This document shows positions 24,367 through 26,707 of a DNA stretch of 64,000 bases, piece after piece. The position numbers and the translations under genes are program-made. Source of the DNA: Amycolatopsis coloradensis (GTDB lineage: Bacteria > Actinomycetota > Actinomycetes > Mycobacteriales > Pseudonocardiaceae); assembly GCF_037997115.1 (NCBI RefSeq), contig NZ_CP150484.1, positions 4,824,842 to 4,888,841 on the forward strand. The letters are read 5' to 3'. The notes under the pieces are model-generated. The model made no database searches, was not told where the DNA came from, and saw nothing but the letters and a program-made list of their open reading frames with translations. The stretch's first letter is position 1. Each line of letters begins with the position of its first letter.

Positions 24367-26544
24367 TCATGCGGGGAAAGCGTCCTTCAGCGCCTCCGGC
24401 AGCTCCCCTTCGTACAGGACGCCGAGCCGCTGCGTAGCGCGCGTGAGCGCGACGTACAGCTCAGCGGCACCGCGCGGGCCGTCGGCGAGGATCCGCTCCG
24501 GGTCCACGACGAGGACGGCGTCGAACTCGAGCCCCTTCGTCTCCGAGGCGGGCACTGTGCCCGGCACCCCGGGCGGGCCGATCACGACGCTGGTGCCTTC
24601 ACGCCCGGCTTCGTCCTTGACGAACTCCTCGATGGCGCCCGCCAGCGAATCCGCGTCGACCTGCCGTGCCCACGGACGGACCCCGTTGGACCGGACCGAC
24701 TCCGGTGCCCGGACCTCGGGCGCGAACTCGGCGAGCACCGACGCGGCGACGGCCATGATCTCCGCCGGGGTGCGGTAGTTCACCGTCAGCGACCGGTAGA
24801 CCCAGCGGCCCGGCACGTACGGCCTCAGCATCGCGTCCCACGATCGCGCCCCGGCCTCGGACCGGCGCTGCGCCAGATCGCCGACGACGGTGAACGACCG
24901 GTTGGGACAGCGCCGCATCAGCACCCGCCAGTCCATTTCGGACAGTTCCTGCGCCTCGTCGACCACGACGTGCCGGTACGTCCAGTCCCGATCGGCGGAG
25001 GCGCGTTCGACGAGGCTGCGCGTGTCGTGCTCCACGAACCGGTCGGCGAGTTCGTCGGCGAAGAGCAGGTTCTCCGCCGACAGCATGACGTCCTCGTCCA
25101 TCTCCTCGCGGTCGAGCTTCATCGTGTCGAGCACACCTTCGGCGTACTCGGCCTCGGCCTTCTTCTCCCGAGCCAGCGCCTTCTCCGCCGCCTCGTCCGC
25201 CGCCTTGTCGCGGCCGAGCAGGTCGACGAGTTCGTCGAGCAGCGGCATGTCCGACACCGTCCAGGCTTCCCCGTCGGCGCGCAGCAACGCCTGGTCGGCC
25301 CCCGCCGCGCGAAGCCGTTCCGAGGACGAGAGAAGCGAGCCCAGCAGGCTTTCGGGCGTCAGGATCGGCCAGAGCTCGTCGAGCGCGGTGGTGAACGTCT
25401 CGCTCTCCGCCAGTTCCTTCAGCAAATCCTTCCGCAGCCGCTCCCATTCGTCGCGGTCGTCCCGGCTGAGCCAGCCGCGGCCGATCCGCGCGATCGCCCG
25501 CTCCGTCAGGACGTACGTGACGATGTCGGTGAACGTCCCCCGCGCCTCGTTGTGCGGCAGACCGCTCTTGCGCGCCTCGTCCCTGGCCCATTCCGCGGTC
25601 TCGGCGTCGATCCGCACGGTGACGTCGGCGAGGTCGATCAGCACCGGCTCCTCCGGCAGCCGCTGGCGATCGGCGACGGCGGCCTTGAGGACGTCCAGCA
25701 TCTTCAGCGAACCCTTGAGCCGGGTGGCTTCCGGCCCGTCCTCGGCGGTGACGTGCTTGCCGGGGACGAAATCGCCGGTGGTCATGAACACCACATCGGT
25801 CTCGCCCAAGGACGGCAGGACCCGGCCGATATGGTGCAGGAACGCCGGATTCGGCCCGACCACGAGCACGCCGTGGCGTTCCATCCGCTCGCGCTGGGTG
25901 TAGAGCAGGTACGCGACGCGGTGCAGCGCCACCACGGTCTTCCCGGTACCCGGCCCACCTTCGATCACCAGCACCCCGGGGTGCTCGTGCCGGATGATCT
26001 CGTCCTGTTCGGCCTGGATCGTCGCGACGATGTCACGCATCCCCTCGCCGCGCGGCGCGTTGACGGCCGCGAGCAGCGCCGCGTCACCCTCCGCGTCGCC
26101 GCCGGGACGGCCGAACATCTCGTCGGTGAACCCGAGCAGCTCACGTCCGTGCGTGTGGAACTGGCGGCGACGGCGCATCTTCTCCGGCGTCGCCGCGGTC
26201 GCGGTGTAGAACGGGCGGGCGGCGGGTGCCCGCCAGTCGAGCAGCACCGGCTCGTAGTCGTTCTCCTCGTCGAAGAGCCCGATACGGCCGATGTACGAGG
26301 TCTCCCCCGCGAGACTGTCCAGCCTGCCGAAGCACAGCCCGTTGTCGACGACGTCCAGCCGCCGCGACTCCCTGGCCAGCGCCCGCACCTCGACGTCGCG
26401 TTCCATGGCCGTCCCGCCGGTTCCGCCCAGCGCCGCCTGGAACTCCCCCTTCACCCGCGCGCGTTCGGCGTCCAGGCGCGTGTAGAGCCCGGCGACGTAT
26501 TCGCGTTCGGACCGCAACTCTTCTTCATGACCCTGAGTTGACAC
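24367..26544 (-). CDS. helR: HelR/HelD-type RNA polymerase-associated ATPase
   Basis: A 725-residue UvrD-like superfamily 1 ATPase of the HelD family. An N-terminal charged coiled coil (about 5-45, HEEELRSEREYVAGL) is the arm that enters the RNA polymerase secondary channel. Walker A is GGPGTGKTVVALHR, with the conserved family segment LVVGPNPAFLHHIGRVLPSLG, then DEAQELSEMDWRVLMRRCP (motif II), GDLAQRR and the C-terminal TKGLEFDAVLVVDP and YVALTRATQRL motifs. Actinobacterial HelD/HelR recycles stalled polymerase, and HelR dislodges rifamycins. The GTG at 26544 has a GGGAG site. A palindrome resembling the rifamycin-associated element lies 54-75 bases upstream, which is why I prefer HelR. The last codons fall inside a repeat arm. 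Confidence 0.85.
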   Translation of the reverse strand: MSTQGHEEELRSEREYVAGLYTRLDAERARVKGEFQAALGGTGGTAMERDVEVRALARESRRLDVVDNGLCFGRLDSLAGETSYIGRIGLFDEENDYEPVLLDWRAPAARPFYTATAATPEKMRRRRQFHTHGRELLGFTDEMFGRPGGDAEGDAALLAAVNAPRGEGMRDIVATIQAEQDEIIRHEHPGVLVIEGGPGTGKTVVALHRVAYLLYTQRERMERHGVLVVGPNPAFLHHIGRVLPSLGETDVVFMTTGDFVPGKHVTAEDGPEATRLKGSLKMLDVLKAAVADRQRLPEEPVLIDLADVTVRIDAETAEWARDEARKSGLPHNEARGTFTDIVTYVLTERAIARIGRGWLSRDDRDEWERLRKDLLKELAESETFTTALDELWPILTPESLLGSLLSSSERLRAAGADQALLRADGEAWTVSDMPLLDELVDLLGRDKAADEAAEKALAREKKAEAEYAEGVLDTMKLDREEMDEDVMLSAENLLFADELADRFVEHDTRSLVERASADRDWTYRHVVVDEAQELSEMDWRVLMRRCPNRSFTVVGDLAQRRSEAGARSWDAMLRPYVPGRWVYRSLTVNYRTPAEIMAVAASVLAEFAPEVRAPESVRSNGVRPWARQVDADSLAGAIEEFVKDEAGREGTSVVIGPPGVPGTVPASETKGLEFDAVLVVDPERILADGPRGAAELYVALTRATQRLGVLYEGELPEALKDAFPA

Positions 26545-26597
26545 AGACTCCCATTTCACCAGGTTTCGGCTACGGCGAGTGAGTTTGAGGCATGACC

Positions 26598-26619
26598 GGG
26601 GTCTTGTGGCAAGTCCCCC
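26598..26619 (-). promoter_or_regulatory. Probable rifamycin-associated element (RAE)
   Basis: A 21-22 base interrupted palindrome: arms GGGGTCTTG and CAAGTCCCC around TGG (plus-strand reading), with one mismatched pair. Read toward helR it contains GGGGACTTG, then CAAGACCCC. As I remember it, the RAE is a roughly 19-base inverted repeat built on GGGGCTTG...CAAGGCCCC, found before rifamycin-inactivating genes and helR in actinomycetes. Its position 54-75 bases before the helR start fits. The consensus is from memory and was not searched. Confidence 0.6.
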
Positions 26620-26707
26620 CATGCGCTATATGTTTATTACGGAGGGAGTTGCCTTCGTTCACTTCTCGGCCCGTCGGGCCCTTTGTCCACCGCATTTTCA
26701 TGCCCAG

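Follow-up and report, generated by a model that had tools for sequence, protein, structure and literature searches.

What is the interrupted palindrome that lies in front of helR in Amycolatopsis coloradensis, and how might such an element turn the presence of a rifamycin into a change in transcription? The question arises from a stretch of 64,000 nucleotides of the A. coloradensis genome (the window), and it has a wider setting, in that a 2026 paper still calls both the mechanism and the regulator of the rifamycin-response element (RAE) unknown (PMC12802891). The helR gene occupies positions 24367–26544 on the minus strand, begins with a GTG codon at 26544–26542 that is preceded by a putative ribosome-binding sequence, GGGAG (26548–26552, minus strand), and belongs by its family scores to the class II HelD/HelR RNA polymerase recycling ATPases. 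Its product scores 1357 bits against the NCBIfam model motor_HelR_2 (NF041258), above the cut-off of 1100, which bears out the initial annotation of the gene as encoding a HelR-type RNA polymerase protector; it also matches the solved Mycobacterium smegmatis HelD (6YXU) over its whole length with 1162 bits, and in the alignment it carries a PCh loop with a Glu-Asp tip, EMDEDVML lying opposite MDDEDHLL of 6YXU. The closest relatives, in Amycolatopsis decaplanina and A. roodepoortensis, are 97% identical, and the genus Amycolatopsis includes rifamycin producers.

The palindrome reads GGGGTCTTG-TGG-CAAGTCCCC on the plus strand at 26598–26618 and, because the GTG is at 26544–26542 of the minus strand, it starts 54 bp upstream of helR, just as it had been described. 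Its arms pair save for a T/T at the fifth position, and the 64-kb window has a single occurrence of the 21-bp pattern, GGGGnCTTGnnnCAAGnCCCC, while 100 shuffled versions have none. Inside it, at 26599–26617, is a 19-bp core (GGGACTTGCCACAAGACCC on the gene strand, which is the minus strand) that fits the RAE pattern, GGGnCTTGnnnCAAGnCCC, with zero mismatches. The initial annotation had seen a variant element with an extra base in each arm, and this detail was wrong: the 19-bp element fits without any insertion (GGGTCTTGTGGCAAGTCCC), and the inserted-base variant is an artefact of register, with position 4/16 variable in every lineage and the outermost G/C part of the flanks. Among the 146 aligned sites described below, position 4 is a G in 77%, and position 16 is an A in 47% and a G in 40%. 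The kind of element was nonetheless recognised correctly, and the site is a member of the known RAE kind; sequence, position, the genome-wide regulon and conservation before helR homologues all agree, and the palindrome is almost certainly a rifamycin-response element.

The genome of A. coloradensis (9.06 Mb, in a single contig) contains only four RAE matches with at most one mismatch, that of helR included. The second leads a rifampin monooxygenase gene, rox (NF033145, 877 bits, cut-off 800), the third an FAD monooxygenase that is rox-like (its best equivalog is rif_monoox, with a score below the cut-off), and the fourth an Rgt-like glycosyltransferase (closest to Rgt with 375 bits, below the cut-off of 800). 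There is a single rpoB, with a core of the usual sensitive type, and the strain therefore has a target worth protecting. An RAE lies within 400 bp upstream of 46 of 80 helR homologues (scoring at least 13/16, against no more than 12 in shuffles), and RAEs are present in 64 of 80 genomes of the genus, with reversed-pattern controls near zero. A second A. coloradensis protein above the HelR cut-off, encoded at 1800609–1802753 of the genome, lacks an RAE in the part of its upstream region that was read; there we observe a TTGACAAGnGGTGGACAATAAAAAAT-like promoter that is common to paralogues in other Pseudonocardiaceae (four loci). We also note that in several genera (nine loci) helR apparently comes immediately after an rgt-like or rox-like gene, seemingly in one RAE-led operon, and that two Nocardia brasiliensis loci (L051 at about 4681 and L084 at about 4679) have, beyond helR, an RAE-like module with both of the -10-type hexamers described below before an alpha/beta-hydrolase-like gene, which may represent another class of resistance gene under RAE control. 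No recognisable regulator gene of the kind that autoregulation would call for is led by any of 169 distinct RAE sites, and no RAE modules were found in viral contigs.

Alignment of RAE sites provides clues to how the element is built. Sites were drawn from helR homologues, the 80 congeneric genomes, 396 from the phylum, and mycobacteria, and were oriented, after which 146 were kept as non-redundant (identity below 85% across 139 bp). As a check on orientation, helR, rox or rgt lies downstream of 146 of the 169 distinct sites; of the others, the majority precede rph, arr or a Streptomyces-type helR. Conservation in the 146 aligned sites extends well beyond the 19-bp core; within the core it is partly there by construction, because the sites were selected by the core, and the flanks are unselected, though they were used when each site was first oriented. 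On the gene side, positions +12, +13, +15, +16 and +17 are C, A, A, A and T in 99, 100, 99, 91 and 99% of the sites respectively, and on the far side an A, a T and an A occupy positions -17, -13 and -12 in 99, 99 and 98%, with position -14 random and positions -15 and -16 loosely conserved. These flanks form two hexamers, CAnAAT on the gene strand and TAnnnT on the reverse strand; both begin 12 bp beyond the edge of the RAE, with 19 bp between each of them and a TTG half of the element. At offset 12, TAnnnT is found on the reverse strand in 98% of the 146 sites and nAnnnT on the gene strand in 99%, the former never exceeding 10% at any other offset. The TTG hexamers that they face overlap each other and, in elements with the common centre, read TTGCGG on the gene strand and TTGCCG on the reverse.

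Positions 1, 2 and 6 of the hexamer are the most important for -10 recognition by sigma factors of the sigma-70 family, and in distant actinobacterial families these are the only positions of the reverse hexamer that are kept; families outside the class have, for example, TAAATT, TAGATT, TATACT, TAAAGT, TAAGGT, TAATGT and TACAAT. The gene-directed hexamer, by comparison, has a T at its first position in none of the 146 sites. Both hexamers accompany the RAE whatever gene it leads: helR (66/69 and 68/69 sites for the two hexamers), rox (30/30), rgt (24/24), rph (10/10), arr (5/5) and Streptomyces-type helR (3/3). In 247 Streptomyces genomes, nearly all of them new to the analysis, both flanking signatures are present at 379 of 395 RAEs, with 0.04 expected from base composition (sums from hand-copied counts). 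Related sequences are not independent, and we place weight on the pattern across genes, genera and hexamer positions beyond the counts themselves. A further feature, seen at many loci in several genera (with four loci as examples), is an inverted repeat, CCGTCC-n5-GGACGg, upstream of the RAE module at about -70 to -55.

The corresponding parts can be placed at the helR site in the window. The candidate -35 of the gene-directed promoter, TTGCCA, lies inside the RAE at 26607–26612 (minus strand), 19 bp from a candidate -10, CAAACT (family CAnAAT), at 26582–26587 (minus strand), whose positions 1, 2 and 6 (C, A and T) are those found in 99–100% of the 146 sites; from the -10 spacing the helR transcript is predicted to start at 26573–26575 (minus strand). 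This hexamer is at a distance that fits the overlap of the RAE with the gene-directed -35; the 19-bp spacer is long for a promoter, and a generic consensus promoter scan called no promoter at the helR upstream site. The outward counterpart consists of a candidate -35, TTGTGG, at 26604–26609 (plus strand), which overlaps the sense -35, and a candidate -10, TATGTT (family TAnnnT), at 26629–26634 (plus strand), at the exact offset found in 98% of the sites. The centre of this RAE copy is CCA on the gene strand, about two thirds of the sites having CGG, and CCA is paired with a -10 of CAnACT in 18 of the 21 CCA sites, probably as one inherited event. Among close Amycolatopsis relatives the CCA centre (sense -35 TTGCCA) together with the poorer -10, CAnACT (window 26582–26617), looks like a compensated change within one clade.

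Judging from the reverse hexamer, an RNA made from the outward promoter would be expected to start at -24/-25, 24–25 bp outside the RAE, where a G on the reverse strand is conserved at both positions in 90% of the sites; in the window this predicted start is the GG at 26641–26642 (plus strand). In 54% of the sites the expected start opens a hairpin whose stem is 8 or longer, compared with a mean of 9% elsewhere, and T-rich DNA often follows it. A strong claim for this hairpin was toned down, as arms swapped between sites pair nearly as well; compensatory change is modest evidence, because swapping the 3′ arms lowers the fraction of stems of at least 9 only from 52% to 38%. In the window the tendency is weak: possible early hairpins lie at 26641–26656 and 26668–26680 (plus strand), the fold is no better than that of shuffled sequences (z = -0.06), and no terminator was called there by a scan. 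We note a GC hairpin at 26668–26686 (plus strand), GGCCC-GTC-GGGCC followed by CTTTGT, between helR and the upstream lytic-transglycosylase-like gene, which could end the divergent RNA.

Taken as a whole, the best explanation is that the RAE is the promoter module of helR, which we consider quite probable. Published work on mycobacteria is in keeping with this: rifampicin no longer induces helR of M. abscessus once half of the RAE has been deleted, and the -35 of the sense promoter P2 has been placed within the element, which overlaps it (PMC10719064); in M. smegmatis, few genes are induced by rifampin as strongly as helD, arr and rox (PMC6529629). By analogy with these and other actinomycetes (PMC10719064, PMC6529629), helR of A. 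coloradensis would be induced by rifamycin. From the arrangement of the hexamers, it seems likely that the RAE serves as the shared -35 core of two divergent, overlapping promoters of the sigma-A type. In the presence of rifamycin, helR would be transcribed from the gene-directed promoter, with its -35 in the RAE and its -10 kept weak by the C at position 1, and HelR would then remove both the drug and the polymerase that it has stalled. For the outward promoter the -35 would be supplied by the opposite half of the RAE, and polymerase would thus be held to one direction at a time. With overlapping promoters an arrested polymerase should block both directions, so that simple occlusion predicts the wrong sign, and for this reason we favor a dimeric regulator that sets the direction; most likely it would sit on the palindrome and favor the gene direction upon rifamycin or polymerase stalling. 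That the direction is chosen by a palindrome-binding regulator is nearly an even call. Somewhat more tentatively still, we propose the general form of this model: that throughout Actinomycetota, and at all known RAE gene classes, the RAE may serve, instead of as a simple operator, as the -35 core that two divergent and mutually exclusive promoters have in common, one permanently weak and gene-directed, the other outward and yielding a very short RNA, and that the sensing of rifamycin may be a switch in the direction of polymerase loading.

The alternative that survives best, though we regard it as unlikely, is that the RAE is only an operator for a single gene-directed promoter, with the TATA-containing box on its far side acting as an upstream sense promoter or as an extra protein contact, and no divergent promoter at all. 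The palindrome does exceed the length needed for a -35, and two sense promoters have been described, and an unknown factor suggested, at M. smegmatis helD (PMC10719064), where the published P1, a sense promoter, has its start some 20 bp before the RAE; we found no conservation of such an upstream sense promoter among the aligned RAE sites. Read in the sense direction, however, the box is TATAGC, with a C at position 6 in 95%, whereas in reverse the positions that sigma needs (1, 2 and 6) are kept in 98–99% while the inner bases vary, and its offset mirrors that of the sense -10 to the base.

Less probable again is an alarm with no regulator, in which the outward promoter is a polymerase-based sensor of rifamycin that is relieved once drug-bound polymerase arrests there. 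There is a precedent in Bacillus subtilis, in which helD is kept silent by a stronger antisense promoter, one that has a 19-bp spacer and gives a short terminated RNA, until rifampicin arrests it (PMC12802891), and it is the outward -10 that has the consensus T at position 1, in contrast to the gene-directed -10. However, the proposed promoters at the RAE are divergent and overlapping, so a polymerase arrested there should shut off both; shortening the spacing in B. subtilis, such that polymerases clash, abolished induction; and the conservation of the GGG/CCC arms is left unexplained.

It is very improbable that the palindrome acts as RNA, as a hairpin in a structured leader: some copies have the potential for a perfect stem, and there are conserved flanks and an upstream inverted repeat, but the bases at position 4/16 do not pair in most copies (G/A, G/G or A/A) and the predicted helR start is downstream of the RAE; an Rfam search returned no matching families, and on this and the mostly unpaired position 4/16 an RNA leader or riboswitch was rejected. 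Inverted repeats are common in a GC-rich genome, but a chance palindrome or an unrelated operator is scarcely credible in view of the shuffled controls and of the retention of the element in orthologues and at other rifamycin-resistance genes.

With these alternatives weighed, the model of two back-to-back promoters around the RAE offers a concrete shape against which to test its mechanism. It predicts, to the base, an outward promoter at every RAE, which can be checked against existing transcription-start maps and which, if true, would change the target of any search for the regulator. Besides target protection, the same RAE module governs drug inactivation of four kinds. The mirror-image promoter architecture, derived from the alignment of the 146 sites, appears to be the new part; we found no description of an outward mirror-image -10 in the RAE literature searched, the primary RAE (2014) and HelR (2022) papers lying outside that search.

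Comparison with known systems places these observations in context. The A. coloradensis protein matches the class II HelD proteins M. smegmatis MSMEG_2174, M. abscessus MAB_3189c and Streptomyces venezuelae SVEN_6029 over the full length and scores above the HelR cut-off, with no notable difference from them; the genome does have a second HelR-scoring paralogue that lacks an RAE. The element resembles the RAEs of helR, rox, rgt, arr and rph in being a 19-bp palindrome, in its position upstream of helR, in the presence of rox and rgt RAEs in the same genome and in overlapping what is here a candidate -35 of the sense promoter, but departs from them in having an A at positions 4 and 16 and a CCA rather than a CGG centre. 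The dual-promoter rifampicin alarm of B. subtilis helD is similar in its opposed pair of promoters at helD, its 19-bp spacer and a tendency to a short, hairpin-ended antisense RNA. Its promoters, however, are convergent and non-overlapping, and no RAE is present, whereas at the helR RAE site the hexamers point outward and the two candidate promoters are divergent, sharing the RAE as their -35 region.
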